From Megasphaera coli (GTDB taxonomy: Bacteria; Bacillota; Negativicutes; Veillonellales; Megasphaeraceae): DNA of 64,000 bases. The stretch lies in contig NZ_FMIY01000002.1 in NCBI RefSeq assembly GCF_900095855.1, forward strand, positions 735,322-799,321, written 5' to 3'. A model generated the notes under the pieces. It did not search any database. It was not told the DNA's origin and worked only from the letters and a program-made list of their open reading frames with translations. Shown here in pieces: positions 30,032-44,470 of this stretch. The position numbers and the translations under genes were made by a program. Positions within the stretch are counted from its first letter, which is position 1. Every line of letters begins with the position of its first letter.

Positions 30032-30676
30032 TTATGCCTCGTTGTCCTCACTGCGCGTAATTTTGTACAAAAGTGCGTTGCAAACGGCGGCAGCCACGTT
30101 GCTGCCCCCTTTACGGCCGCGGGCGACAATATACGGGACGGGATACTTCGTAATCAGTTCCTTTGCCTGAATGACATTGACGAAACCGACGGGGACGGCA
30201 ATGATAAGCTCAGGCTTAATCTTATCCTCATCCATAAGTTCCGCCAGTCGGACGAGGGCTGTCGGCGCGTTGCCGACGGCAATAATGACAGGACCTTCGA
30301 TTTCGGCGGCTTTTTCCATGCACGCCGCGGCCCGCGTCGTCCCTGCTGCCGCGGCCTTTACGGCAACGTCGGCGTCGGCCATAAAGCAGGCCTTCGTGCA
30401 GCCTGTTTTTTGCAGGGCTGAGCCGTTAATTCCCATAAAGGCCATATTTGTGTCCGTCACGAAAGTGCAACCGCCGCGAATAGCCTTCAGGGCCGATTCT
30501 ACAGCATCGTCGCTGAAGGAGAGATTACGGGCGTAGTCAAAATCGGCGCTCGTGTGGATGACACGCATAATAATATCCGCCTTTTCCGCATCCAACGTAA
30601 TTTCACCGAGCTCTTCCCGAATTATTTCCATACTCCGCTTTTCTATATCCGCCGGTAAAACGTGGTCCATTTCCAT
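30032..30676 (-). CDS. cbiC: Cobalt-precorrin-8 methylmutase
   Basis: Moves the methyl group from C-11 to C-12, giving cobyrinic acid. The 214-residue protein has IEKRSMEIIREELG, VIHTSADFDYARNL (catalytic histidine region), VTDTNMAFMGIN, VGNAPTAL and IVARGRKGGSNVAAAVCNALL, all typical of CbiC/CobH. It is the last gene of the corrin operon, three bases after cbiA. Its place at the distal end means its level depends on the riboswitch 14 kb upstream unless an internal promoter exists; none was evident. Confidence 0.96.
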   Translation of the reverse strand: MEMDHVLPADIEKRSMEIIREELGEITLDAEKADIIMRVIHTSADFDYARNLSFSDDAVESALKAIRGGCTFVTDTNMAFMGINGSALQKTGCTKACFMADADVAVKAAAAGTTRAAACMEKAAEIEGPVIIAVGNAPTALVRLAELMDEDKIKPELIIAVPVGFVNVIQAKELITKYPVPYIVARGRKGGSNVAAAVCNALLYKITRSEDNEA

Positions 30677-30679
30677 CGT

Positions 30680-32059
30680 TTATTTCTCCTCTTTACGCCA
30701 CAGGGCACAGGCATTTACCAAGTTTTCCGCCACATGGGGGGCGCCGCAAAAATGAATGTGCGCATATCCTGCCCAAAGGTTTTTCTCTACATGCAGATCC
30801 CGCCAAATTCGCCTGCTTCCTTCCTTGGTCACCGTAAAAGCCGTGCCGTCTTCACTTGTTTCAGAATAATGAAACTCATGAGCATGCAATACGTCGCCTG
30901 CTTTACACAAAAAATTGTCTTTCCGAGCCGTCAAGGTTTCATACCCGAAGCGTTTCAGCGACCGAGTCATTTTCACGACACCCGGCACTGCTCCGACCAT
31001 GGGCAATACAGTATTATTGTACTTAATGGCTGCCGCTAAATACATAAAACCGCCGCATTCGGCAAAGCAGGGCATGCCGGCTTCTATGGCTGCGGCAATG
31101 TTCTTTCTCATAGCCTCGTTGCCGCTTAATTCCCGGGCGTACAGCTCGGGATACCCGCCGCCTATATAAAGGCCGTCGCAATCCGGTAAAGCAGCATCCC
31201 GTACGGGGCTGAACGGAATGAGGTCGGCGCCGAGATGCTCCAGAAGCCTCAAGGCCGCATCGTAATAAAAGCAAAAGGCTTCATCTTTCGCTACGGCAAT
31301 ATGTACTCGCTTTGCTGCAGGCGCCGTCTGCATTTCGTACGTCAAGGGCGGCGCCGACTCGGCCAAAGACAGAAGACCGTCCACGTCGAGAGCTTTTTCG
31401 GCCGCCTGTCCCAATATGTCTACACGATTCGTCAAATCCTTTATTTCGTTGGCCGTCACCAATCCCAGGTGACGGCTCGCTATGACCGCTTCTTCCATAT
31501 AAGGCAGACAGCCGTACGCTTTAAGGCCCGACTCTTTCTCCCACAGTGCCTTATAGTGTTCATAAACGGATTGACGCACATTATTGACAACGAATCCTTT
31601 TATGCCGCTGTCGGCGCGAAAACCGGCCATACCTTTCAGCACGGCCGCAATCGACGCGGCCGCACCCTTGCCGTTGACGACAAGGACTACGGGAGTCTGC
31701 GTCACCCGCGCTAAGTCGTAGGCGCTATAGTCGCACGAAAGTCCGAGGCCGTCATAAAATCCCATGGCCCCTTCGAGAACGGCTACAGTTTTCTCTTCTC
31801 CCGCCTCACAGAGAAGACGTTTGGCCACTGCCTCTCCCCTGCCGTGACCGCCGAAGAGAAAAAGGTCCAAGTTATCCGACCGGGTACCCGTCACGACGGA
31901 ATGAAACATGGGATCAATGTAATCGGGACCGCTTTTAAAGGCACAGACGGCACATTTTCGCTTAACGAGCGCCCGCAGAAGAGCGCAGGTCACGGTCGTC
32001 TTGCCGCTGCCGCTGGCAGGCGCCGTCAAAAGCAGGCGCGGCACGGCCTTACGCGCCAT
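30680..32059 (-). CDS. cbiA: Cobyrinic acid a,c-diamide synthase
   Basis: Glutamine-dependent amidation of the a and c side chains of cobyrinate. The 459-residue protein begins RLLLTAPASGSGKTTVTCALL (P-loop) and has FKSGPDYIDPMFH, YDGLG, and the class I glutaminase part with CDGLYIGGGYPELYA and FAECGGFMYL, where the cysteine is the nucleophile. The start is the ATG at 32059 behind GGGAGGCGGA; it overlaps the end of cbiET by 11 bases. CbiP, the enzyme for the remaining amidations, is not in the window. Confidence 0.95.
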   Translation of the reverse strand: MARKAVPRLLLTAPASGSGKTTVTCALLRALVKRKCAVCAFKSGPDYIDPMFHSVVTGTRSDNLDLFLFGGHGRGEAVAKRLLCEAGEEKTVAVLEGAMGFYDGLGLSCDYSAYDLARVTQTPVVLVVNGKGAAASIAAVLKGMAGFRADSGIKGFVVNNVRQSVYEHYKALWEKESGLKAYGCLPYMEEAVIASRHLGLVTANEIKDLTNRVDILGQAAEKALDVDGLLSLAESAPPLTYEMQTAPAAKRVHIAVAKDEAFCFYYDAALRLLEHLGADLIPFSPVRDAALPDCDGLYIGGGYPELYARELSGNEAMRKNIAAAIEAGMPCFAECGGFMYLAAAIKYNNTVLPMVGAVPGVVKMTRSLKRFGYETLTARKDNFLCKAGDVLHAHEFHYSETSEDGTAFTVTKEGSRRIWRDLHVEKNLWAGYAHIHFCGAPHVAENLVNACALWRKEEK

Positions 32060-33272
32060 GATCCGCCTCCCGAACCGCAGCACTCATGACATAGACCGGG
32101 TTCTGTCCTTCCATGAGCGTATACGCGCCGACCTTACGGTCTCTCGCCGCAAAGAGCTGTACCGTATTCAGCACGCAGGACGGCTTATCCTTATAATACT
32201 CCGTCACGGCGGCAACCGTCTCAAGCGTAATAGCCGTAATGACAATACGGCAGGACGGATTTTTGCCGTACAGCTTGTCTAAAATAAGGGCAATCTCTCC
32301 CTTCGTGCCGCCTATAAAAGCGCAGTCCGGCCGTTCTATGCCGTCCATTGTTTCCGTGGCATTGCCGGCTATCAGGTGCAGATTTTCCGCGCCGAAGCGT
32401 TCCTTATTTTGCTGCACCGAGCTGAGAGCTTCAGCTTTCAGTTCAAAAGCATATACTCTTCCCAGCGGCGCCTGAAAAGCAAGTTCCACGGAGCACGACC
32501 CCGTCCCGGCGCCTATATCATATATGATGTCCGTCACTTGCGGCTGCAGCTTTGAAATGGCAAGAGCACGCACTTCCTGCTTTGTCATGGGAACTCTGCC
32601 GCGGTGAAAGAGCTCGTCCTCCCAACCGTGAACGGGCCGCACAGGTAAAGATGCGTTATCATTAAAAATCATCATAACCGCCAAGGATGAAAAATCTTTT
32701 TCCCTGATATCGGCTGCCGCAGTACGCGTAATTTTCTCATTATCATAAGACAGGTTTTCGCCTACCGCCACCTGTACATTTTCCAAGCCTGCTGCACAAA
32801 GTTCGGCACACAAAGCGCGTACGGAATTATCTCCTCCGGTCAGGCAGAAAACTTTCTCATGTGTCATAACCGCCGCAGTGAGCGGAGTCTGCCTGCCGTG
32901 GCGGCTGATGACAAAGGCATCTTCCCACGCCGTCCCGATAAGGGCGGCAAAATAGACAAGGCTGCTTATACCGGGATGGCGTATAATCCGGCAATCCGGA
33001 AAATCCGCGATCCCCTTGGCCAGGCTGAAAAAACCGACATCTCCCGAGACGAGAACGGCCAGGCAGTCTTTCTCTCCGTCCGCAGCAGCGGCGATGTCAC
33101 GAATTTCCGCTGCCTTGAAAGTAGACACAAGCCGCTTTCCCCGGCACAGCGCCTCATCCAGAAGGCGCACATCGCCGACGAGTATGGTCGCTTCCGCCAA
33201 GGCACGGCGCGCTTTTTCCGTCAATAATTCGGGATTTCCCGGTCCCATGCCGATTACATGTACTGTGAGCAT
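32049..33272 (-). CDS. cbiET: Cobalt-precorrin C5,15-methyltransferase/decarboxylase, CbiE-CbiT fusion
   Basis: A two-domain enzyme of about 407 residues. Residues 1-200 are CbiE, a tetrapyrrole methylase with VHVIGMGPGNPELLTEKA and VSGDVGFFSLA. Residues 210-407 are CbiT with MTKQEVRALAISKLQ and the SAM-binding IYDIGAGTGSCSVELAF. The fusion corresponds to CobL. Two ATGs are close together; the one at 33272 has GGAG eight bases upstream, while the one at 33278 overlaps the cbiJ stop as ATGA. Either gives a functional protein. It lies between cbiJ and cbiA. Confidence 0.94.
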   Translation of the reverse strand: MLTVHVIGMGPGNPELLTEKARRALAEATILVGDVRLLDEALCRGKRLVSTFKAAEIRDIAAAADGEKDCLAVLVSGDVGFFSLAKGIADFPDCRIIRHPGISSLVYFAALIGTAWEDAFVISRHGRQTPLTAAVMTHEKVFCLTGGDNSVRALCAELCAAGLENVQVAVGENLSYDNEKITRTAAADIREKDFSSLAVMMIFNDNASLPVRPVHGWEDELFHRGRVPMTKQEVRALAISKLQPQVTDIIYDIGAGTGSCSVELAFQAPLGRVYAFELKAEALSSVQQNKERFGAENLHLIAGNATETMDGIERPDCAFIGGTKGEIALILDKLYGKNPSCRIVITAITLETVAAVTEYYKDKPSCVLNTVQLFAARDRKVGAYTLMEGQNPVYVMSAAVREADHGA

Positions 33273-33274
33273 TC

Positions 33275-34030
33275 TCATTTCTCCGCATAAGTCTCTAAAA
33301 ATTTTACCATTTCATCATACGCAATACCCGTATCTTCCGGCCGCTCAATGACGATAAGCCTGGCACCGGCCTCACGGGCGGCAATGAGCTTTTCTTCAAA
33401 GCCGCCGACGGCGCCGGAATTTTTCGTCACTACAAAGGCTGCCCCGGCGCTCTTGAACATTTCCCTGTTCAAGGCTACGGAAAAAGGCCCTTGCATGCAA
33501 ATGAGCTGCGCCGGCGAGAGGCCGAGGTTCAATGCTTTATCCAAAGAATCGCGAACCGGTAAAATTCGGACAATGAGCCGTTCTTTAAAATGACGCAGCT
33601 TTATAAAGACGGGCAAGTCCTTGCTGCCTGTCGTTAAAAAAATCTTCCCTTCCTGCCGTCCCAGCCAGTCTGCAGCTGCTTGAGGGGACGAAAAGCGCAA
33701 GCATTCCGCCTCATCTCCTTCCGGCCGGAGCAGGCGTTTATAAAGGACTTCTTTTTCAGCGCAAACGCGGCGCAACGTCTCCGTCACAACGGCAGCATAA
33801 GGGTGCGTCGCGTCGACGACAAGATCCGGCGCGCAGTCGTCCAAAAAGCGGCACATATCGGCCTCATCGAGGCGCTTGTCAAAGACGGTCACATGTTCTC
33901 CCGCCTCGACGAGAGAGGCGCCGTATTCCGTGGCAACCGTAACGAAAATCTCCCAATTCTTACGGGCCAACTCCTCTGCAAGACGCCGCCCTTCCGTCGT
34001 CCCTGCAGCTATCCAAATGCGCCGGTTCAT
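33275..34030 (-). CDS. cbiJ: Cobalt-precorrin-6A reductase
   Basis: Reduces the corrin macrocycle using NAD(P)H. The 251-residue protein starts IWIAAGTTEGRRLAEELAR, the nucleotide-binding signature of CbiJ/CobK. It also carries VVDATHPYAAVVTE, IFLTTGSKDLPVF, QGPFSVALN and VTKNSGAVGGFEEKL. The start codon overlaps the cbiH stop (ATGA) and lacks its own clear Shine-Dalgarno site, so translation is coupled. Confidence 0.95.
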   Translation of the reverse strand: MNRRIWIAAGTTEGRRLAEELARKNWEIFVTVATEYGASLVEAGEHVTVFDKRLDEADMCRFLDDCAPDLVVDATHPYAAVVTETLRRVCAEKEVLYKRLLRPEGDEAECLRFSSPQAAADWLGRQEGKIFLTTGSKDLPVFIKLRHFKERLIVRILPVRDSLDKALNLGLSPAQLICMQGPFSVALNREMFKSAGAAFVVTKNSGAVGGFEEKLIAAREAGARLIVIERPEDTGIAYDEMVKFLETYAEK

Positions 34031-34758
34031 AGGCGATAGCCGCGCGGCGTCACGAGTCGGCCTTTGAGGTTCCGCGTTTGACTGTTGCCGATAATGACGG
34101 TCGTAAACATATCGGCTTTTGCCTCTGCCAGTTCGGCCAAAGTTGTAAGGACGGCCGACTCGCCGTCCCGGCCGATATTGCGGACAAGGCCGCAGGGCGT
34201 GTCGCCCGTTCTGTACTCGCGAATATGGGCACAGGCCCTGGCCAAATAATCGGGCCGGCCTTTGCTGCCCGGATTATAGAGACAAATAACGAAATCCGCG
34301 TCGGCCGCCGCTTGCAGGCGCTTGACGATTTTTTCCCACGGCATCATTAAGTCGCTGAGCGAAATAAGGCAAAAATCGCTGCAAAGAGGCGCACCGAGGA
34401 GTGCCGCGCCGGAGCAGGCAGCCGTAATACCCGGGACGACTTCCAGTTCCACATCGCCGTAAGGCTCGGCCACTTCATACATAATGCCGGCCATGCCGTA
34501 TACACCGGCGTCGCCGCTGGAGACAAGGACAACGACCTTTCCTTTTTGCGCTTCTTCCAGGGCCATGCGGCAGCGGTCAATTTCTTTTTTCATGCCCGTA
34601 ACGATATATTCTTTTTTGGGAAAGCGATCTTTAATAAGGTCAATATATGTCGTATATCCGGCAATGATGTCGCATTCCTGCAAGGCCTCGACGGCACGGT
34701 ACGTCATTTCCTCCGCTTTTCCCGGTCCGAGGCCGACTATATAAATTTTTCCGGACAT
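34027..34758 (-). CDS. cbiH: Cobalt-precorrin-3 C17-methyltransferase
   Basis: Methylates C-17 with ring contraction to the corrin framework. The 243-residue protein has IYIVGLGPGKAEEMTYRA, AGYTTYIDLI, VLVSSGDAGVYGMAG, VPGITAACSGAALLGAPLCSDF and GLVRNIGRDGE. The start is set at the ATG 34758 because GGAGGA precedes it by four bases. The plain, unfused length argues against the CbiGH or CbiH60 variants. Confidence 0.95.
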   Translation of the reverse strand: MSGKIYIVGLGPGKAEEMTYRAVEALQECDIIAGYTTYIDLIKDRFPKKEYIVTGMKKEIDRCRMALEEAQKGKVVVLVSSGDAGVYGMAGIMYEVAEPYGDVELEVVPGITAACSGAALLGAPLCSDFCLISLSDLMMPWEKIVKRLQAAADADFVICLYNPGSKGRPDYLARACAHIREYRTGDTPCGLVRNIGRDGESAVLTTLAELAEAKADMFTTVIIGNSQTRNLKGRLVTPRGYRL

Positions 34759-34770
34759 GCTCTCCTCCAA

Positions 34771-35817
34771 TCAATACTCCCACGCAATGGCGCCCGTCTC
34801 ACAGGCAACGGCAACGGTTATGCCGTTTTTTGCGTATTTTTTCACTATAAGCTCGGCCGCATCGGCACCGGCCAGGGCAGCCCGTTCACAAACGTTATCG
34901 ACGCCGACCGCAGCCGCTACAAAGTCTGACGACGCTTCGGTCCCTTCAACCGCCCCCAGCTCGGCGGCATCGTAAAAACGCAGGGGCACATCGAAACAGG
35001 CGGCCGTTTCGGCAATCCCCGCCTCGTCGGTTTTAATATCAATCGTATTTATATCTTTTACAGACTGCAGGGCCAAGTGATTATCCTGAAAGACGGCTCT
35101 GATAAGTTCACAAATGGCGGTTCCTTTCTTGCCGCGCCGGCAACCGACACCGACATGGAGCACCTTCGGATAAACGGCAACGGTGACCGCAAAGGGGCAT
35201 ACATCCGTATGCGCCGTGAGGGCAATGCCGACAGGGCCTTTATCGGCAACAAACAAACCGGACGGCATCGTTCCCGTCAACGGAAACTCGCTGAAAACGG
35301 CGGCACCTTCATGTTCCAAAGCAGCAGAGGCAAAGGCCTTTGCCTCTTTAAGAGACGATAAGGCGAACCCTTTGCGGGCAGCCCATTCATCTACGGCAAA
35401 AAGGCCGTTCACATCGGTCGCCGTCGTAAGGATCGGTATCGCCCCCAAAGGCGCGGCTAAAAGTCGCGCCAACCCGTTGGCTCCGCCTATGTGGCCGGAA
35501 AGAAGCGGTATAACGAAGCGGCCGCTTTCATCGCTAAGAAGAACCGGCGGATCCGACGCTTTATCCTTAATATGCGGCGCAACTGCACGGACGGCGATTC
35601 CCGCCGCGCCGATAAAAATGAGGGCATCCTTCTCTTGAAAACCCTTGCCGACAATTTCATATAGAGACGGCACAATTTCCGTAAAAGCATCATCACGGCC
35701 GGCCAGACGGGAAACGGTATATATTCGGCTCTCATATCCGTACAATCGCAAGGCCCGCCCGATGCACAAGGCCGTCTGCCCCGCCTTGGCCGTAAAAAAG
35801 AATATTCGCGCCTTCAT
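34771..35817 (-). CDS. cbiG: Cobalt-precorrin-5A hydrolase
   Basis: Opens the lactone with loss of acetaldehyde. The 348-residue protein has the N-terminal domain (IGAAGIAVRAVAPHIKDKASDPPVL, LLSGHIGGANGLARLLA), a middle linker and the C-terminal domain (VGVGCRRGKKGTAICELI, ERAALAGADAAELIVKKYAKNGITVAVA). This fits the anaerobic, cobalt-early pathway. It lies between cbiF and cbiH. Confidence 0.95.
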   Translation of the reverse strand: MKARIFFFTAKAGQTALCIGRALRLYGYESRIYTVSRLAGRDDAFTEIVPSLYEIVGKGFQEKDALIFIGAAGIAVRAVAPHIKDKASDPPVLLSDESGRFVIPLLSGHIGGANGLARLLAAPLGAIPILTTATDVNGLFAVDEWAARKGFALSSLKEAKAFASAALEHEGAAVFSEFPLTGTMPSGLFVADKGPVGIALTAHTDVCPFAVTVAVYPKVLHVGVGCRRGKKGTAICELIRAVFQDNHLALQSVKDINTIDIKTDEAGIAETAACFDVPLRFYDAAELGAVEGTEASSDFVAAAVGVDNVCERAALAGADAAELIVKKYAKNGITVAVACETGAIAWEY

Positions 35818-35829
35818 TATATCACCTGC

Positions 35830-36597
35830 TCAATCCTTTTTCTCGACTGCGGCCCTGCGGCAGGCATGAGAAAAGGTCGGATCATAGAGCCGGCTCCGCT
35901 CGTAAGCACTCGCCAGGAAAGGGCCGACAAGGACGAGAGCCGTTTTGATAATGCCCGCATCCGATGCGGTTTGCGCCAATTCGCCTACAGTGCAGCGGAA
36001 GACCTTTTCATCGGGCCACGACGCCTTGTATACGATGGCAGCCGGCGTTGCAGCCTTGTAACCGCCGCGAATGAGTTCACTCGTCAACTTATCGAGAAGT
36101 CCCGCACTCAGGAAAATGATCATTGTCGCCCGATGGGCACTGTAATCCGCGATAGTCTGTCTGTCGGGAACGGACGTACGCCCTTCCATACGCGTAATAA
36201 TGACGGACTGACTCACGCCGGGCAGTGTGTATTCGCAGCGAACGGCAGCTGCCGCTGCGGAGAAAGAGCTGACGCCGGGCACATTTTCATAAATAATTCC
36301 CAGTTTGTCGAGCTCGTCCATTTGCTCACGAATAGCACCGTATAAGCTCGGGTCGCCCGTATGAAGGCGGACAACTATTTCATCCCGTGCGGCCGCCTCC
36401 TTCATCGCCCCGATGACTTCTTCCAGTGTCATGGACGCACTGTTCATGACGCGGCACTTCTTGCGGGCGTAATGCAAAAGTTCCGGATTGACGAGAGAAC
36501 CCGCGTAAATAATGAGATCCGCCCGTTCCAGGAGCGCTTTGCCGCGGACCGTAATCAAGTCGGCCGCACCCGGCCCGGCACCGACAAAATATACCAT
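35830..36597 (-). CDS. cbiF: Cobalt-precorrin-4 C11-methyltransferase
   Basis: Methylates C-11. The 255-residue SAM enzyme shows MVYFVGAGPGAADLITVRG, IYAGSLVNPELL, VRLHTGDPSLYGAIREQMD, NVPGVSSFSAAAAAVRCEYTLP and SVIITRMEGRTSVP. Its first base is shared with the last base of cbiL. All hallmarks of CbiF/CobM are present. Confidence 0.96.
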   Translation of the reverse strand: MVYFVGAGPGAADLITVRGKALLERADLIIYAGSLVNPELLHYARKKCRVMNSASMTLEEVIGAMKEAAARDEIVVRLHTGDPSLYGAIREQMDELDKLGIIYENVPGVSSFSAAAAAVRCEYTLPGVSQSVIITRMEGRTSVPDRQTIADYSAHRATMIIFLSAGLLDKLTSELIRGGYKAATPAAIVYKASWPDEKVFRCTVGELAQTASDAGIIKTALVLVGPFLASAYERSRLYDPTFSHACRRAAVEKKD

Positions 36598-37310
36598 TAC
36601 GGCTCATCCCCCTTTTTTACAAGGATAACGGAAAAGTACGAGTTCTCCAGCGCATCGACCAAACGGGGATACAACGCTTCTCCTTCAAGACCGCACCGTT
36701 CCGCCAGGGACGCCCTGTCTATGAGTTTCTTGCGCCGCAGTATGTCCTTAATTTCTTCCAATTTACCGGACGGTTTCATAATAACCGCATTGTCCGCCTC
36801 GTCAAGGAGCGTTTCCACCTTTTCATGCATTGCCGGCACGATGATAAGGGACTCATTTTTCTTGCATAAATCCGTCTTTAAGGCAGCGGCGGCAGCTGCA
36901 AAGGATGTAACACCGGGCACTGTTTCCGTATAGAACCCGTCCGCCGCAACACGACGCCGTACGTACGTGCTCGATGCGTATACCGTCGGACAGCCGAGCG
37001 TAAAGAGGGCCACATCTTTACCGTCCCGTAAACGGGCTTCCACTGCAGCCGCATTCTCGCCGTGAGCTCTCGCCAAAACGGCTTCGTCTCCGGTCATGGG
37101 AAAATGCAGGGTCACAACTTCCTTGTCTTTCATTTCAAGACTGTCTATCAGCCGTATAATATTTTCCAGTATGAATTTGGCAGTCATCTTGCCGGCATGT
37201 CCCTGAGGCAGGGCCCAAACGGGGCATGACTTCATGCAGCGCACCGCTTTCAGCGTAACCAGCTCCGGATCTCCCGGTCCCACACCGACAGAAAAAAATT
37301 TTCCCTTCAT
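36597..37310 (-). CDS. cbiL: Cobalt-precorrin-2 C20-methyltransferase
   Basis: First methylation after cobalt insertion. The 237-residue protein has FFSVGVGPGDPELVTLKAV, FTLGCPTVYASSTYV, ETVPGVTSFAAAAAAL and AVIMKPSGKLEEIKDIL. It is coupled to cbiD upstream by a four-base ATGA overlap and to cbiF by one base. Confidence 0.95.
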   Translation of the reverse strand: MKGKFFSVGVGPGDPELVTLKAVRCMKSCPVWALPQGHAGKMTAKFILENIIRLIDSLEMKDKEVVTLHFPMTGDEAVLARAHGENAAAVEARLRDGKDVALFTLGCPTVYASSTYVRRRVAADGFYTETVPGVTSFAAAAAALKTDLCKKNESLIIVPAMHEKVETLLDEADNAVIMKPSGKLEEIKDILRRKKLIDRASLAERCGLEGEALYPRLVDALENSYFSVILVKKGDEP

Positions 37311-38455
37311 AGTCTTTTCCTTCCGTTCCCATGAAATACCAGCAAGTTCTCCGCGCCGGCCGTCATACCGAGAACGCCATACGTATTGGAAAAGATAATA
37401 GCCTCCGTTTTGAGAGCACCGTGCACACGGTCGTCCATATAATAGGCAATTTTTTTCAAAGCTTTGTCCATGACCGCCTCGAGCAGGTTCTCCCGCTTCA
37501 GTATGTCAACGGCAACATCCGTCGTCACGCTCTCGTATATGGCTCGCCCTATTTTCCTGTCGGCACCGGCAAACATGGCTTCCATAGCCAGAAACGTTGT
37601 TCTCCCGTCGGCATAACGGGAGTGCGTGTTCATAATTCCCTGAGCCAATTTAAGGAGTTTGCCCGCATGGCCGATGAGGAGGATGTCTTCAAAGCCGCAA
37701 TAAGCGGCGTAGTCCAAGAGCTCGCCTACATAGTTGCTGCACGTAATTCGATTTTCCGCAGTAATGCCCCATTCTTTCCGGCTGAAGTCGACGCCGTAGT
37801 TGCCGAAAAAAGCGAGGACGTGACGGTCTCCGGCAGCGCGGCGGGAATCCATTTCCACGTGAATCGTATCGACGAGAGCCTGTTCGCTCATAGGGTCTAC
37901 AATTCCCGTGGTGCCCAAGACGGATAACCCGCCTTCAATGCCCAACTTGGGATTGAAGGTCTTCTTGGCAAGCTCGGCACCGCCCGGAATGGAAACGGTC
38001 ACCTTCATGCCGCCACGATAGTCGTACTTGTTCATGACGGCCTGTACTGCTTCCGTAATCATACGTCGCGGCGTCTTATTGATGGCCGGACCGCCGACAG
38101 GGGAAGAAAGGCCCGGTTTCGTCACCGTGCCGACTCCTTCACCGCCGCAAAGAATGATGCCCGTGTCCGCCGTAAGTTCGGCCGTCACAAAAATAAGGAG
38201 GCCGTCCGTTATGTCCGGGTCGTCACCTGCGTCCTTTCGGACAGCCGCGCGGGCGCCGTGCAAAAGAAATGTCGCTTCTTCCGGCTCAAGCTCCAGGACA
38301 ATTCCCTTGGGCGTCTTGATGCGGACCAGGTTGACAGGTTTACGGGACAAGCTCATTTCCGCAGCCACACTTGCGGCGGCAGCGGCACACGTACCCGTCG
38401 TATACCCATAACGAAGCGTCTTTCCTTCTTTTACGGCATAGTGTTCCCATTTCAT
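37307..38455 (-). CDS. cbiD: Cobalt-precorrin-5B C1-methyltransferase
   Basis: Methylates C-1; specific to the anaerobic pathway. The 382-residue protein begins LRYGYTTGTCAAAAASVA and has PVGGPAINKTPRRMI, VTVSIPGGAELAKKTFNPKLG, LGTTGIVDPMSE and ILLIGHAGKLLKLAQGIMNTHS. It opens the run of ring-building genes, 56 bases after cbiK. RBS GAGG precedes the ATG. Confidence 0.96.
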   Translation of the reverse strand: MKWEHYAVKEGKTLRYGYTTGTCAAAAASVAAEMSLSRKPVNLVRIKTPKGIVLELEPEEATFLLHGARAAVRKDAGDDPDITDGLLIFVTAELTADTGIILCGGEGVGTVTKPGLSSPVGGPAINKTPRRMITEAVQAVMNKYDYRGGMKVTVSIPGGAELAKKTFNPKLGIEGGLSVLGTTGIVDPMSEQALVDTIHVEMDSRRAAGDRHVLAFFGNYGVDFSRKEWGITAENRITCSNYVGELLDYAAYCGFEDILLIGHAGKLLKLAQGIMNTHSRYADGRTTFLAMEAMFAGADRKIGRAIYESVTTDVAVDILKRENLLEAVMDKALKKIAYYMDDRVHGALKTEAIIFSNTYGVLGMTAGAENLLVFHGNGRKRL

Positions 38456-38511: not shown

Positions 38512-39513
38512 TTATCGTTTTTCCAGAGCATTCCATGCTTCGTTAGCGCGTTCTACAAACATCTTACGAACCGCACCGTTTTCACCCAGACCGTGAATGT
38601 ACGTATTCACGGTGAATCCTTCCGCTTCAAGAACACTCTTGTGCGAATCCGGTTCGGCACCGGCCATATCGTTGTTTGCGTGATCGCCTGCGACCATCAT
38701 CATGGGCATAAGCGTCACCTTCTTGATACCTTTGGCTTTAAGCTGCGGCATTACCGTATCAAGGTGAGGCCAGCCTTCAACGGAATAAACAAAGACATTA
38801 CCGAGATTTGCCGCATCCAACCGGTTCTGAACGACCGAATAGTAAGCATTTGCCGGATGGGGCGTACCGTGTGCCATAACGAGAATCGCTTCGTCTTGCG
38901 CAAGTTTCGGGAACTGCGTGGATAAAGCCTGTACGAATTCTTCCACGTCATCACGCTGCTCTTCCTGACCCATCCAGTACATAATCGGCGTGCCGACAGT
39001 CATTTTTTTGAAGTCTTTCTTGTACAGATCATAAATAGCCGTATCATAAGCATATTCCATGCCCGGAATGACGTCGAGAGACGTAATGGCCACACGTGTA
39101 TAGCCGTCTTTCTTCAAATCGGCCAAGGCTTTTTCCGGTGTCGGAATCATAAGGCCTTCGTTTTGCCCGATACGGTCTACGATAATGTGGGACGTAAACG
39201 CGAGAACAACTTTCGTATCGGGATGAGCCGCCTGAATTTCGGAAACGGTCTTGTTAATCGTCTTTTCCCGGCTGTCCTTAAAAGTCGTGCCGAAGCTGAG
39301 CACCAAAATGGCATCTTTATCGGGCGCATTCTTCATCGCTTCATTTTCGTATACGCGCACACCGATTTCAGCGGCTTGCTTCAGTGCGGGCGTAGCGTCC
39401 TTAACTTCCGGATTGAGCGAATACCCTGCCTGTGCGGGCACGCCCGTAATCACACCGAAGGATGCAACTGCAAGCGTTACGAGGCACATTCTTTTCAACA
39501 TTGTCTTTTTCAT
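38512..39513 (-). CDS. cbiK: CbiK-type sirohydrochlorin cobaltochelatase with signal peptide
   Basis: Inserts cobalt (or iron) into sirohydrochlorin. The 333-residue protein is CbiK family: DAILVLSFGTTFKDSREKTI, VLAFTSHIIVDRI with one metal-binding histidine, EEAILVMAHGTPHPANAYY-like sequence, and TLMPMMMVAGDHANNDMAG with the second conserved histidine. Unlike the cytosolic enzyme it opens with a signal peptide (MKKTMLKRMCLVTLAVASFG..., likely cleaved after AQA at residue 29), so it should act outside the inner membrane. An exported CbiK is known in Desulfovibrio. Here it lies between an ABC importer and cbiD. Both chelation for B12 and a role in metal or tetrapyrrole uptake are possible. Confidence 0.93.
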   Translation of the reverse strand: MKKTMLKRMCLVTLAVASFGVITGVPAQAGYSLNPEVKDATPALKQAAEIGVRVYENEAMKNAPDKDAILVLSFGTTFKDSREKTINKTVSEIQAAHPDTKVVLAFTSHIIVDRIGQNEGLMIPTPEKALADLKKDGYTRVAITSLDVIPGMEYAYDTAIYDLYKKDFKKMTVGTPIMYWMGQEEQRDDVEEFVQALSTQFPKLAQDEAILVMAHGTPHPANAYYSVVQNRLDAANLGNVFVYSVEGWPHLDTVMPQLKAKGIKKVTLMPMMMVAGDHANNDMAGAEPDSHKSVLEAEGFTVNTYIHGLGENGAVRKMFVERANEAWNALEKR

Positions 39514-39541
39514 AACGACACTCCTTTTATAAAATAATGTA

Positions 39542-40324
39542 TTATTTATTTACCGGCAGAAAAGCTTTTTCCCCCGAAAGAGACATAAACTCTCCGACAG
39601 TAATACAAAACACGGAATGAATCAGTTCCGGCACGATAACCTCCCTTGCATTGCCGGCAGCCGCAATACGGCCATACTTCATGGCAACGGTCTTATCCGT
39701 ATACTTGATGGCCTGGTTGATATCGTGCAGGACAACAATGACGGTTGTCCCCGTTTCTTTTTGCAGCTGCCTGAGCAGTTCCATAATTTCCAGCTGATGG
39801 CGAATATCAAGATAGGTTCCCGGCTCGTCGAGGAGTAATATTTCCGGTTCCTGCGCCAAGGCCATGGCGAGCCAGACACGCTGCTGCTCGCCGCCCGAAA
39901 GGGTATGGACCGGCCGTTCGGAAAAACCGGCCGTCCGCGTGATTTCCATGGCCTTTTGTACAGCCAGACGGTCTGTCCTGCGGGCCGCACGAAAGGGACG
40001 TATATGGGCAAAGCGGCCGAGCTCGACAAGCTCCTTTGCCGTCACCTTTCCCGGCAGTTCATGCTGCTGCGGTAAAATAGCAATATGCCGCGCCAGCTCT
40101 CTGCGGCCGTACGAATGTAAATCCCGGCCGCCTACGCTAATCGTACCGTCGTATGTACCGATGAGACGACACATGCAGCGAAGGAGTGTGCTTTTCCCGC
40201 AGCCGTTCGGACCGATGACGGAGATTATTTTCCCTGCTTCAATATTCAGACTTATGTTATGCAGAATTTCCTTATTGCCTGCAGTACAGGACAGGTTCTT
40301 TATTTCCATGGCGACGGGACTCAT
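39542..40324 (-). CDS. ABC importer ATPase (B12/iron-complex family)
   Basis: Nucleotide-binding subunit, 260 residues: Walker A GPNGCGKST, Q-loop ILPQQHELPG, signature LSGGEQQRVWLAMAL, Walker B LLLDEPGTYLD and the switch histidine in VVLHDINQAIKYTD. It belongs to the FecE/BtuD/HmuV group. The ATG at 40324 overlaps the permease stop by one base (TAATG); the frame extending to 40369 lies inside the permease. Given the riboswitch, corrinoid or cobalt-complex transport is likeliest. Confidence 0.93.
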   Translation of the reverse strand: MSPVAMEIKNLSCTAGNKEILHNISLNIEAGKIISVIGPNGCGKSTLLRCMCRLIGTYDGTISVGGRDLHSYGRRELARHIAILPQQHELPGKVTAKELVELGRFAHIRPFRAARRTDRLAVQKAMEITRTAGFSERPVHTLSGGEQQRVWLAMALAQEPEILLLDEPGTYLDIRHQLEIMELLRQLQKETGTTVIVVLHDINQAIKYTDKTVAMKYGRIAAAGNAREVIVPELIHSVFCITVGEFMSLSGEKAFLPVNK

Positions 40325-41313
40325 TACACTTCCCTCCTCAATAGAAATAAAAAGAACGGTGCACCCCAAAAAGCCATGATAATGCCGACGGGAAGCTCCA
40401 TAGGCGCGAAGAGAAGCCTAGCCAATGTATCGCTGCCCGTGACGACGGCAGCACCCAAGAGAGCCGACGCCGGCATAATATATCGATAGTCCGTGCCGAT
40501 TAAAAGGCGTGCCATATGCGGTATAATAAGGCCGACAAAGCCGAGCAGTCCCGCCACGCTGACGGCACTGGCCGCAAGCAGTGCCGCAAGAGCTGTAAAA
40601 ATAATGCGCGTCCCTTCCACATTGAGGCCGATGCCCTTAGCCGCTTCATCGCCCAATTGGAGGATATTTAAATAGTACGCGCCTAAACAGCTGAGAAGCA
40701 GCCCCGCAATTGTGTACGGCAAGATGAGCTGCACGTCCGTCCAGCTCTTGGCGGCAAGGCCGCCGACCATCCAGAGAAGGGCACCATGGACGCGGTCACT
40801 GAAAAAGATGAGAAGTCCCGAAATACAGGCACCCAACAAGGCCGAAACGGCAACGCCCGCCAGAATGAGGCGCACAGGCCTGATGCCGTTTTTCCAGGCT
40901 AGGAGGTAGACAATACCTGCCGCCGCCATAGCGCCGCAGAAGGCACTCGGCACGATAAGGGCCGTATAGGCCGGCAGGACTAAAATAACGGCAATGCCGG
41001 CCAGGCCGGCTCCCGAAGAGACGCCGATAATATGAGGATCCGCCAAGGGGTTGTGCATGACCGCCTGCAGGATGGCTCCGGCAAGAGCCAGGTTGATGCC
41101 TACGAAAACGCCGGTAACCGTCCGGGGCAGGCGAATATTCCAAATAATCTGATCCGTCGTCGTCGACTGCGGCATTACGAGAGACTCTGCAACCCGTTCG
41201 AGCACAATATCGGCCGCGCCAAAAGAGACGGAGAGGACGAAGAGGCAGAGAGCCGCACCCGTAAAGAGAAGAAGCATCCCCCACTTACGCCGCCGTATAG
41301 AAGAAATTATCAT
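40324..41313 (-). CDS. ABC importer permease, FecCD/BtuC family
   Basis: Membrane subunit of 329 residues with about ten helices. It carries the family's IRLPRTVTGVFVGINLALAGAILQAVMHNPLADPHIIGVSSGAGLAG motif region near the start and GLLGFVGLIIPHMARLLIG near the end. FecCD members import B12, haem and iron-siderophores. The gene overlaps its binding protein by four bases and its ATPase by one. Confidence 0.94.
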   Translation of the reverse strand: MIISSIRRRKWGMLLLFTGAALCLFVLSVSFGAADIVLERVAESLVMPQSTTTDQIIWNIRLPRTVTGVFVGINLALAGAILQAVMHNPLADPHIIGVSSGAGLAGIAVILVLPAYTALIVPSAFCGAMAAAGIVYLLAWKNGIRPVRLILAGVAVSALLGACISGLLIFFSDRVHGALLWMVGGLAAKSWTDVQLILPYTIAGLLLSCLGAYYLNILQLGDEAAKGIGLNVEGTRIIFTALAALLAASAVSVAGLLGFVGLIIPHMARLLIGTDYRYIMPASALLGAAVVTGSDTLARLLFAPMELPVGIIMAFWGAPFFLFLLRREV

Positions 41314-42260
41314 AAACCGCTCTCCGGATAAACGAGTTTGGCCATATATGATACGCTTTGGGGATAATGAAGCCCCGGATTTAAGAGGAAGAGATTTTCC
41401 GGCAATGTATACACTCTGCCAGCCCTGACAGCGGAAAGAACGGACCAGGCCGGACTGTTCTCAAAGGTTTCTTTCATTATTTTCTCTATTTTTTCTTTTC
41501 GCCCCATGGTCGTAATGAAAATGACATCCGGATCCGCCTCGGCAAGACGTTCCATGCTGTATGGTACTTGCGCAGCGTCCGTCTTTACTTCACCTGCGGC
41601 GGCAACATTCGTAAATCCGAGCAGTTCGGCACAGGAGCCGGCAATAGAGTTGGGCATTTCTACGGAAACCTGACTGGGCGTGGCATGAATAATGACTATT
41701 TTTTTCCCTTCTTGCGGCACCCTCGCCTTTATAGCGGAAATTTCCGCATCCATCAGATCCATATGGGCCTTGGCCATATCGGCCTTGCCGTAGACTTTGC
41801 CGAAAATTTCCATATTGCGCTTAACATCGGCATATGTTTTGGACGAAAGGACGATGACGGGAATGTCGTTTTGCTCGAATAACGCCACCAGCTCGCCGTG
41901 CTGCGACTTACTGGCAATGACGAGGTCCGGATTAAGGTCCAAGGCGGCTTCCATGCTGACGTTGTAAACAGGCCCTACTTCGGGTACTGCTTTATACCGT
42001 TCGGGTACGACGGCATCGGCGGATTTAACAGCAACGCGGCCGACCAAATTACCGTCAACGGCATCGGCAAAATTCATGAGCGAAGAAGATAGGACAACGA
42101 CGCGCTGCGGTTTTTCCGCAAGCGTCACGGTCCGCCCCAAATCATCCGTAATGACGGCGTAAGCGCTGCCGTCCTTGTTGCCGTCAACCTGCTGCGGCCC
42201 GCAGCCGGAAAGAAATACGGTTGTTATGAGAATACATAAAATAATAATTTTCTTCAGCAT
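41310..42260 (-). CDS. Substrate-binding lipoprotein of the ABC importer (BtuF-like)
   Basis: A 316-residue lipoprotein: MLKKIIILCILITTVFLSGC with the lipidated cysteine at residue 20. The body is a helical-backbone binding protein: ITDDLGRTVTLAEKPQRVVVLSS, ALDLNPDLVIASKSQHGELV, LAEADPDVIFITTMG and the end AVRAGRVYTLPENLFLLNPGL. This is the family of BtuF and FhuD. The ATG at 42260 follows AAGGAG; an in-frame upstream ATG at 42350 is inside the receptor gene. The substrate is inferred, from the riboswitch and neighbours, to be a corrinoid. Confidence 0.93.
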   Translation of the reverse strand: MLKKIIILCILITTVFLSGCGPQQVDGNKDGSAYAVITDDLGRTVTLAEKPQRVVVLSSSLMNFADAVDGNLVGRVAVKSADAVVPERYKAVPEVGPVYNVSMEAALDLNPDLVIASKSQHGELVALFEQNDIPVIVLSSKTYADVKRNMEIFGKVYGKADMAKAHMDLMDAEISAIKARVPQEGKKIVIIHATPSQVSVEMPNSIAGSCAELLGFTNVAAAGEVKTDAAQVPYSMERLAEADPDVIFITTMGRKEKIEKIMKETFENSPAWSVLSAVRAGRVYTLPENLFLLNPGLHYPQSVSYMAKLVYPESGL

Positions 42261-42270
42261 ACCCTGCTCC

Positions 42271-44142
42271 TTAGAACGCATATTTGACGCCGAACGACCA
42301 ATTGCGGCCCGCATCAGGATATCCGTGATAAAGATCGTAACCGTCGTCACCGATGTTTTGAACGGTCATATAAAAGGTCGTATCGGCATTGGCCGCATAG
42401 CTGGCATTGGCATCCCAGCGGATGTACGAACGGTTCATATAATATGAATCATTTCGCCCCGTTCCGGCCGTAATCATTAAATTGGCACGCCACTTTCCTG
42501 TATGATAACGCAAGGCTGCGTGATAACCGTTCGGACTGCTGTTGGACGGATCGAGGCGCATACCGCGGCGCTCGTCGATTTTTGTCTTAGTGTATGAATA
42601 CCCCGCTTCGTAATCCCAAGCGGCATTCACCCTCTTTTGCAGGGAAATATCAATGCCCCTCTTGTCTTCACGGTTGAGGTTGCGCACCTGATAGGGCGTA
42701 ACGCTTCTGTCCCAGCGAATGGCATCATTCAAATAGCTGTGAAAGGCGCTGAAACGCAGCACGGATTTTTTATCAAAGGCCCAATCAAAGCCGAGAGTTT
42801 GAGAATAGCCCGTTTCGGGCCGTAAATTCGGATCTCCGTGAGAACGGGCGCCGTTGTAATACATGTCATTCAGACGCGGTGCCGTATAGACGCGGCTCCA
42901 CGAAGCATAAGCGTTAAAAGTACCGCTTGCCCTGTATTCTACGGCAAGACGCGGCGTCTTATGGAAGCCGAAATTGCTGTTATCGTCGAGACGCAGGCCC
43001 GGCGTAATCGTCCATTTATTAAAAACTGTCATATCTTCCACATAAACGGCCCGATTGGTCTTCTTACGGTCTTTATAATTGGCACCGTCATTGGAACCTG
43101 CATCCTTCGTCCATTCCAAGCCGGCAGTAACGAAATGGTGCGCATTCATCCAAGACGTCTCCGCCTGCACACCCTGTGTGCGCGTGTGAAAACGGTTGGT
43201 CCACCGGGTGCGTGTATAATCATTAAAATAACGAATAAATCCGGGCGTACCCGTGTTTTCCCCGAAGTGATAGGTCAGGCTGTAATTATTTACCAACCGT
43301 TCAAGGGGCTTAATCGCTTTGATTTTAAATTCGTTATGATTGACGCTGTACCCCGAGTCGAAGGTCACGGCATGACCGCGATACGTTTTATGAAAGAGGT
43401 TGAAGGTAAGAGAATCGCTCTTGCTGAGGCGCTGATCAATACGGGCGGAAATATTTTTCGCAGAAAAGTCGCCGCGAGCTTCATTACCTTTAAAGGCGTT
43501 CGGAAATTTATAGTATTCCCGCTTTTCCAAACTGCCGGCCACCATCCAGCTCGTATTGCCGGCAGAGCCTTCTTGCGTAAGGCCGTAGCGATGTCTCTTC
43601 CACGAACCCGTGCTGAGATCAAAGACGGTGCGATTTTTTTTGCCCTTTTTCGTAACGATGTTGATCGTGCCGCCTACGGCACCGGCTCCGTAGCGAACGG
43701 AACTGCCGCCCTTGACGACCTCAATTTCGGCAATCGAATCAACTCCCGGCAAGGTTCCCAAATCCACCGTGCCCCGCCCGTACGACGAGCCCTGGACATT
43801 GCCTATGTTTTGTCCGTCCACGAGAATGTTGACACGGTCGTCGCCGTTCAATTTTACGAAAGATGTAGCACCGGGAATCATACTATTAATGACGACGCCG
43901 TTTATTTGCCGCAATACGTCTTCCACGGATTTGTAATTGTCGGCGCTGATTTCCTTCTCCGTAAGGACGGTCGTCTGCGCATCCGGCAGATTTCGCTGTT
44001 TGCCGTCATAGGCATTGACTATAACCGGCCGTGTAGCCACGCGAATAATATCGTTGTTACCCGCCTGCACGGCCCGGGGACAGGTGCTGACGCCGACCAG
44101 GATCGTGTATATGCCTGCCCGTACTAATCGATTGAGTTTCAA
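42271..44142 (-). CDS. TonB-dependent outer membrane receptor
   Basis: A 623-residue receptor with signal peptide (MKLNRLVRAGIYTILVGVS...AVQA) and a TonB-box-like DIIRVATRP. The plug domain shows SVEDVLRQINGVVINS, RVNILVDGQNIGNVQG and VKGGSSVRYGAGAVGGTINIVTKKG, and a 22-strand barrel ends in SFGVKYAF with the C-terminal phenylalanine recognised for outer membrane assembly. It is shorter than siderophore receptors and close to BtuB in size. It is first in the operon under the cobalamin riboswitch, so import of B12 or cobinamide is the best reading. No tonB-exbBD in the window. Confidence 0.93.
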   Translation of the reverse strand: MKLNRLVRAGIYTILVGVSTCPRAVQAGNNDIIRVATRPVIVNAYDGKQRNLPDAQTTVLTEKEISADNYKSVEDVLRQINGVVINSMIPGATSFVKLNGDDRVNILVDGQNIGNVQGSSYGRGTVDLGTLPGVDSIAEIEVVKGGSSVRYGAGAVGGTINIVTKKGKKNRTVFDLSTGSWKRHRYGLTQEGSAGNTSWMVAGSLEKREYYKFPNAFKGNEARGDFSAKNISARIDQRLSKSDSLTFNLFHKTYRGHAVTFDSGYSVNHNEFKIKAIKPLERLVNNYSLTYHFGENTGTPGFIRYFNDYTRTRWTNRFHTRTQGVQAETSWMNAHHFVTAGLEWTKDAGSNDGANYKDRKKTNRAVYVEDMTVFNKWTITPGLRLDDNSNFGFHKTPRLAVEYRASGTFNAYASWSRVYTAPRLNDMYYNGARSHGDPNLRPETGYSQTLGFDWAFDKKSVLRFSAFHSYLNDAIRWDRSVTPYQVRNLNREDKRGIDISLQKRVNAAWDYEAGYSYTKTKIDERRGMRLDPSNSSPNGYHAALRYHTGKWRANLMITAGTGRNDSYYMNRSYIRWDANASYAANADTTFYMTVQNIGDDGYDLYHGYPDAGRNWSFGVKYAF

Positions 44143-44171: not shown

Positions 44172-44202
44172 AAAAAAGGCCGCAAGGTATCACCTCACGG
44201 CC
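44172..44202 (-). terminator. Riboswitch expression-platform terminator
   Basis: Minus-strand GGCCGTGAGGTG / CCTTGCGGCC with an ATA loop, followed by six T residues, 30 bases before the receptor start codon. By position it is the ON/OFF hairpin of the cobalamin riboswitch. Confidence 0.85.
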
Positions 44203-44425
44203 ATAAGCCATCGTCATCGCCTTCGCAATCTCCATCCCCATCGCTCGCAGGTCCATCGGTGATTATCAGTCAGGCAGTTCTTCCGGCTCGGCTTCATTGC
44301 GCGATTGCGCCTTCCCATACAAACGTACAGTGACATCATGCAATCGCCCTCATCCTTACGGCGGCGGGACCGCGCCGGTTTCGCACCGGACTTCTCTGTT
44401 AGGTCATAGACACCTGACTTCTTAT
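44203..44425 (-). promoter_or_regulatory. Cobalamin (B12) riboswitch
   Basis: On the transcribed strand the order is AGTCCGGTGCGAAACCGGC, GGTCCCGCCGCCGTAAGG, TCACTG, TATGGGAAGGCGC and AAGCCGAGCCGGAAGAACTGCC, then CTGACTGATAATCACC. This is the ordered set of conserved blocks of the B12 riboswitch. It is followed by a terminator. When the cofactor binds, transcription into the 14-kb uptake and synthesis operon should stop. It fills the 305-base gap between engB and the receptor gene. Confidence 0.93.
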
Positions 44426-44441
44426 ACGCTTTTTCGTAAAA

Positions 44442-44470
44442 ACTATATCATACCCCTATTTCAGTGTCAA
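44442..44470 (-). promoter_or_regulatory. Promoter of the corrin operon
   Basis: Minus-strand TTGACA (44470-44465), a 17-base spacer and TATAGT (44447-44442). The -35 hexamer lies inside the last codons of engB. No terminator separates engB from the riboswitch, so engB transcripts can also enter it. Confidence 0.8.

Follow-up and report, generated by a model that had tools for sequence, protein, structure and literature searches.

The corrin-synthesis operon of Megasphaera coli includes a chelatase gene whose product appears to be exported, raising the question as to how a periplasmic enzyme could contribute to a pathway whose remaining steps are expected in the cytosol. This gene, cbiK (38512..39513, minus strand), is the only cobalt chelatase gene in the window, by which we mean the whole 64,000-nucleotide stretch of DNA that was analysed. 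The original prediction offered two solutions, a periplasmic chelation step tied to uptake or a second, cytosolic chelatase encoded elsewhere in the genome, and we have examined the operon, its protein products and its relatives with both in mind.

The operon is tightly packed on a single strand (minus, as are all of the features described below), and its order is TonB receptor, binding lipoprotein, permease, ATPase and cbiK, followed by cbiD, L, F, G, H, J, ET, A and C, ending at position 30032; Pfam and NCBIfam matches agree with the order originally proposed for the importer genes, cbiK and cbiD. A promoter-like site at 44442..44470 (TTGACA-17-TATAGT with an extended -10 TG) has 11 of 12 matches and is the best in the interval from 29.8 to 44.7 kb. 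It is followed by a cobalamin riboswitch aptamer at 44256..44432 (Rfam RF00174, 101.8 bits, E = 2.6e-24) and by an intrinsic terminator with an 11-bp stem and T-run at 44178..44202, between the aptamer and the first gene. Terminator-like matches are not enriched across the region (18, versus 19.0 in shuffled sequences); that ahead of the first gene, which outscores the others on the operon's strand, is likely the expression platform of the riboswitch.

The first gene (42271..44142) encodes a BtuB-like TonB-dependent receptor (PF00593, E = 2e-37; PF07715) whose best NCBIfam match, the BtuB vitamin B12 receptor family TIGR01779, scores 182.7 bits, below its cut-off of 599.7. Next are a substrate-binding lipoprotein with an LSGC lipobox (41310..42263; PF01497, Peripla_BP_2, E = 1e-32), a FecCD/BtuC-type permease (40324..41313; PF01032, E = 5.4e-92) and an ABC ATPase of the FecE/BtuD class (39542..40324; PF00005, E = 1.3e-33). 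The best NCBIfam match of the lipoprotein is the heme protein IsdE (140.8 bits) and that of the permease is BtuC (268 bits), while the ATPase scores 272 bits with FecE; all three are below cut-off. By its scores the importer is intermediate between BtuCDF, FecCDE and IsdE, and finished corrinoids could be its cargo. Downstream of cbiK lie cbiD (37307..38455; PF01888, E = 1e-92), cbiL (36597..37310; TIGR01467, 198.3 bits, above cut-off), cbiF (35830..36597; assigned from sequence, position, tblastn synteny and its score as a CobA paralogue), cbiG (34771..35817; best NCBIfam match NF004466, 240.5 bits), cbiH (34027..34770; assigned from sequence and synteny), cbiJ (33275..34030; TIGR00715, 180.5 bits, above cut-off), a cbiE-cbiT fusion (32049..33278; TIGR02467 and TIGR02469, above cut-off), cbiA (30680..32083; NF002204, 436 bits, above cut-off) and cbiC (30032..30676; PF02570, E = 8.2e-73). 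CbiL is the enzyme expected to accept cobalt-sirohydrochlorin.

The cbiK product is a 333-residue protein that matches the Pfam CbiK family (PF06180, E = 3.4e-83) over residues 68-326, with 279 bits against a cut-off of 26.2 and coverage of positions 2-260 of the 262 in the profile. Its score of 230.7 bits with NF047852, the NCBIfam equivalog for sirohydrochlorin cobaltochelatase CbiK, does not reach the 400-bit cut-off, and by this measure it is homologous only. The nearest named cbiK is that of Anaeroglobus geminatus (89%), the next being from a Megasphaera sp. (about 80%). Alignment places Glu153 (39055..39057), His215 (38869..38871) and His278 (38680..38682) at the positions of the catalytic residues Glu89, His145 and His207 of Salmonella CbiK. 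An AF2 model (pLDDT 88) has the CbiK fold and ranks Salmonella CbiK first (1qgo; TM 0.93 by target, rmsd 2.1), followed by the periplasmic CbiK of Desulfovibrio vulgaris (2xvz, 2xvx) and then Porphyromonas gingivalis FetB (9b86). Insertion of cobalt into sirohydrochlorin is predicted for the product of 38512-39513 from its family. The Salmonella enzyme, which it resembles in fold and active-site residues, is cytosolic, has neither leader nor extension, and belongs to a host that makes its own sirohydrochlorin; in each of these respects the Megasphaera protein is predicted to differ.

The N-terminal part of the protein consists of a predicted Sec-type signal peptide and a conserved mature extension. 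Residues 1-29 (39427..39513), MKKTMLKRMCLVTLAVASFGVITGVPAQA, have the standard layout of a Sec leader, the n, h and c regions being recognizable in MKKTMLKRM-CLVTLAVASFGVITGV-PAQA|G with cleavage after AQA, as originally proposed; the call is based on this layout and its conservation in relatives. There is no Cys at +1 of AQA|G and CbiK is therefore not a lipoprotein, the lipoprotein of the operon being the binding protein. Residues 30-65 (39319..39426), a segment of 36 residues absent from Salmonella CbiK in the alignment, contain Y, L, V, T, L, A and G residues that are invariant among 25 exported homologues. A leader of different sequence and the same layout is found in all other full-length congeneric CbiKs but one, that of the relative G005. 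A start-codon error, which would have undermined the signal peptide as first described, is unlikely since a ribosome binding site graded strong, AAAAGGAG (39521..39528), lies 7 nt upstream of the ATG at 39513, whereas none comparable to AAAAGGAG precedes the in-frame ATG of Met60, the sole later start near the beginning of the CbiK domain; we thus rejected a mis-assigned N-terminus. All of these features point to a periplasmic location for CbiK.

Export of CbiK is not in itself new: it is known for Desulfovibrio CbiKP, as the original prediction also recognized, and for P. gingivalis IhtB/FetB. Sec or lipoprotein leaders are also present on most CbiKs that we examined from Negativicutes. The Megasphaera protein shares with D. 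vulgaris CbiKP (2xvx, 2xvy, 2xvz) the exported CbiK fold and the catalytic Glu/His/His, but it has the conserved 36-residue extension and lacks the heme-binding pair: the positions of the heme-binding CbiKP histidines 96 and 103 are Ala and Asp in the alignment, so that the heme-binding CbiKP type can be set aside. There are also regulatory parallels, since in Desulfovibrio one B12-element has been described over cbiK-cbiL and btuCDF (PMC545781), and both systems combine a B12 riboswitch with association of cbiK with cbiL and a Btu-type ABC importer. Unlike in Desulfovibrio, the Megasphaera cbiK shares a TonB receptor gene and the whole set of corrin genes in one operon, and neither precursor synthesis nor a cytosolic CbiK is encoded in the genome.

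A second comparison leads toward a different function. The Iht system of P. gingivalis (IhtA-E) is a TonB-ABC system that includes an exported CbiK-like protein, IhtB (= FetB), thought to remove iron from heme (PMC10913741), and it has the same parts as the Megasphaera locus: TonB receptor, exported CbiK-like protein, binding protein, permease and ATPase together. Since the FetB/IhtB structure (9b86) is a close match to our model and the binding protein is nearest to IsdE, it could be that the importer takes complete corrinoids or cobinamide while the exported CbiK is a periplasmic iron or heme accessory (in iron removal, heme storage or binding, as proposed for IhtB) and the cbi precursor enters in some other way. 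We regard this as unlikely, because a B12 riboswitch rather than an iron signal is found here and at many other exported cbiK genes, because the CbiKP heme-binding histidines are absent, and because cbiK is linked to cbiL and cbiD. IhtB itself is a lipoprotein, and the role proposed for it concerns heme iron; the Megasphaera CbiK is predicted to be Sec-cleaved and soluble, and its gene is under a B12 riboswitch inside a cbi operon.

Genome-wide profile searches of the M. coli assembly (G000) returned one PF06180 match, the CbiK of the operon, and no match to CbiX, CobN, the N-terminal part of SirC/CysG or the ferrochelatase HemH; weak CbiX matches in relatives proved to be the CbiK genes of those genomes themselves. 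These searches count against the second cytosolic chelatase of the original prediction, and congeners with assemblies that are 98-99% complete agree. The same approach gave no match to HemC (PBG deaminase) in G000 and no methyltransferase over the CobA cut-off of 185 bits. The best CobA match (C1:771241-771915), at 146 bits, is the cbiF gene of the operon, so that a CobA hidden among the methyltransferases was also rejected; CobA-profile scores in hemC-positive relatives are 231-320 bits. This early-tetrapyrrole gap is defined by HemC, CobA and SirC. Without these three there is no standard pathway to sirohydrochlorin, which CbiK metallates before CbiL acts, and M. coli should therefore not make the ring that its operon requires. 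From its gene content, M. coli seems to have lost the first half of B12 synthesis and to have kept the second. The original prediction took cytosolic synthesis of the substrate for granted; in this genome the genes for making sirohydrochlorin there appear to be absent.

The G000 assembly is about 90% complete and HMM searches can miss divergent enzymes, so one might suppose that enzymes that escaped recognition, or ones encoded in the tenth of the genome that is missing, produce uroporphyrinogen III, precorrin-2 and sirohydrochlorin, with the exported CbiK forming a side branch. The relatives make this very improbable. HemC, SirC and an over-cut-off CobA are absent, with CbiD and CbiK kept, in six genomes (G000, G001, G003, G005, G008 and G013), of which four are 98-99% complete, one of them (G013) as a single contig, and identical searches recover all three enzymes in sister species such as G014, G002 and G007; in G014 the genes form a contiguous sirC-hemC-cobA/hemD-hemB cluster. 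In a tree of six concatenated Cbi proteins, G000, G008 and G003 fall beside the hemC-positive G014 (support 100) and G013 beside the hemC-positive G002 (support 89), in a second group that is otherwise poorly supported. Because G000, G008 and G003 on the one hand and G013 on the other each adjoin a different hemC-positive genome, it is likely that the precursor genes were lost independently, and at least twice.

Loss of the precursor genes could also mean that the cbi operon is a relic in which only TonB-ABC uptake of B12 is still useful. This would also accord with A. geminatus (G003, locus L152), in which frameshifts split cbiC, cbiK, the binding protein and the TonB receptor genes, while engB and lon are whole; these may be signs of decay or, as this is a draft genome, errors of assembly. 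G000 and G008, which both lack the precursor genes, nonetheless have all 14 operon ORFs intact at near-saturated synonymous divergence (pS 0.63-0.83), with pN ranging from 0.13 to 0.34 over the operon (0.13 for cbiK and 0.14 for the permease, the latter in an alignment beginning at residue 26; lon is 0.14). By this comparison the operon is not decaying in either genome and, as it is likewise kept in separate lineages, we consider its being a relic to be improbable.

The G000 gene order recurs in G008, G014 and G003, but in most congeners cbiK is solitary and away from the importer. In G001, G002 and G013, the other congeners with a CbiK leader in which both loci were examined, TonB receptor, binding protein, FecCD, ATPase, cbiD and the genes beyond form one unit and the exported cbiK is elsewhere. 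In G001 and G002 a separate B12 riboswitch precedes the solitary cbiK and another (Rfam) the receptor unit, while in G013 the riboswitch profile matches 148 nt upstream of cbiK. In congeners that retain hemC, cobA and sirC, too, no CbiK other than an exported one was found, so that export predates the loss of precursor synthesis and did not arise in response to it. In these full-pathway congeners, sirohydrochlorin must either leave the cytosol and return, or receive its cobalt from SirC or some other enzyme.

The exception noted above, G005, warrants closer attention. Its CbiK (L048:8939-9802) has no leader, and the gene lies behind mnmG-rsmG with no riboswitch; its corrin operon (L153) contains the TonB receptor, ABC importer, cbiD, F, G, H, J, ET, A and C, with no cbiL between cbiD and cbiF. 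As G005 has the precursor gap together with a leaderless CbiK, periplasmic chelation is evidently not obligatory and a cytosolic chelatase is workable. The gene content of G005 fits metallation of an imported ring in the cytosol, and shows that chelation can move from one compartment to another. By extension, the M. coli CbiK might be kept wholly or partly in the cytosol through inefficient export, acting there on a metal-free tetrapyrrole brought in by the ABC importer, and the adjacency of cbiK and cbiD would suit such an arrangement. We think this rather unlikely given that the leader layout is shared by the remaining full-length CbiKs of the genus and is widespread among Negativicutes, that the strong ribosome binding site is at the leader start and not at Met60, and that the extension following the cleavage site is conserved.

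Of 300 genomes from the class, 270 have CbiK, 263 CbiD and 263 HemC. An nhmmer profile search finds a B12 riboswitch match within 700 nt upstream of 38 of the 91 CbiK rows called exported and none of the 16 called leaderless. As the simple rule used had wrongly placed at least six leaderless proteins among the 91, the contrast is if anything stronger; the species are related, so that the counts are not independent. The arrangement of riboswitch, exported cbiK, cbiL, binding protein, FecCD and ATPase is also present in Selenomonas, Pectinatus, Anaerospora and others, in several families. Four genomes of one genus (g229 of family f112: G383, G406, G424 and G433; L146-L149) contain CbiD with no HemC match listed, and on the contig with cbiD they have an exported cbiK that follows genes for a binding protein and an ATPase. 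No B12 riboswitch scored above threshold in the three of these loci that were scanned (L146, L148 and L149), and the regulatory argument is weaker for this lineage.

Several other arrangements were seen. Members of the Veillonella group (L156, L157, L186 and L195) have three CbiK-family genes per genome: an exported one adjoining a binding-protein gene, a leaderless one adjoining cbiL and, beside the latter, a very divergent leaderless paralogue (about 22% identity). G231 (family f117), which is 99% complete, has CbiD with neither a HemC nor a CbiK match. In a locus that matches Mitsuokella multacida, an exported cbiK preceded by a B12 riboswitch of its own is closely followed by a molybdenum cofactor riboswitch (L057:10097-10237), and a genome that matches Selenomonas sp. 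F0473 (G183) encodes a full CobN-type chelatase subunit (C1:916796-920101; 1279 bits) alongside one exported CbiK.

Some bacteria are known to have the corrin pathway while lacking part of precursor synthesis, ALA being the precursor that has been tested (Shelton et al., PMC6461909); P. gingivalis is cited there, after Roper 2000, as having a corrin pathway without the steps to precorrin-2. M. coli resembles such salvagers in keeping the corrin ring genes with the early steps missing, and differs from the tested ALA-requiring ones in that its gap extends through CobA and SirC, such that the point of entry would be sirohydrochlorin or later, and in that the operon contains a candidate apparatus for uptake and chelation. 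We tentatively favour, at somewhat short of an even chance, the interpretation that the operon is a corrinoid salvage-and-build unit. When B12 is scarce the riboswitch would let transcription through, and the TonB receptor would admit to the periplasm a sirohydrochlorin-level tetrapyrrole, whether metal-free or already complexed with a metal, as in siroheme. The exported CbiK would there insert cobalt, or exchange the metal first, and the binding lipoprotein, permease and ATPase would carry cobalt-sirohydrochlorin into the cytosol for CbiL, H, F, G, D, J, ET, C and A to convert to cobyrinic acid a,c-diamide. With the genes for making sirohydrochlorin lost, no other way into the corrin pathway would remain for M. 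coli or for four of the five congeners that share the gap; the fifth, G005, would metallate the ring in the cytosol.

The absence of precursor genes, the single chelatase, the intact operon, its B12 riboswitch and the recurrence of operons joining exported cbiK, cbiL and an importer all speak for this salvage interpretation; together with the shared regulation in Desulfovibrio, they lend contextual support to the periplasmic chelation tied to uptake that was originally suggested. There is also evidence on the other side: G005 combines the gap with a leaderless CbiK, full-pathway congeners export CbiK as well, cbiK is mostly solitary, the importer's scores are intermediate, the G003 operon contains split ORFs, and the G000 assembly is incomplete. 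That free sirohydrochlorin or siroheme is a nutrient in the habitat is an assumption. A literature search, mostly outside subscription papers, found no paper describing the Megasphaera case, and what appears to be new is the conjunction of an exported sole chelatase, one B12-regulated operon that combines uptake and corrin genes, and genomes cut off at the level of sirohydrochlorin.

A broader proposal, which we advance as a speculation and consider unlikely, is that the periplasm is where cobalt-sirohydrochlorin is put together and that the cell takes it in already metallated, chelation and cobalt uptake being one step. Sirohydrochlorin, whether from neighbours or sent out by de novo producers, would serve as a cobalt carrier that is loaded by exported CbiK and brought by a Btu-like ABC importer to CbiL, and this would apply to many Negativicutes and to Desulfovibrio with the operon of riboswitch, exported cbiK, cbiL and importer. 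The salvage interpretation would link two puzzles, the export of CbiK in many anaerobes and the feeding of bacteria that have a corrin pathway without its ring precursor (the P. gingivalis 'enigma'). If it is correct, microbes trade B12 precursors as late as sirohydrochlorin, and calling B12 producers from cbi genes alone would mislabel such species; as Megasphaera are host-associated, it would also bear on which organisms supply B12 intermediates in such communities.
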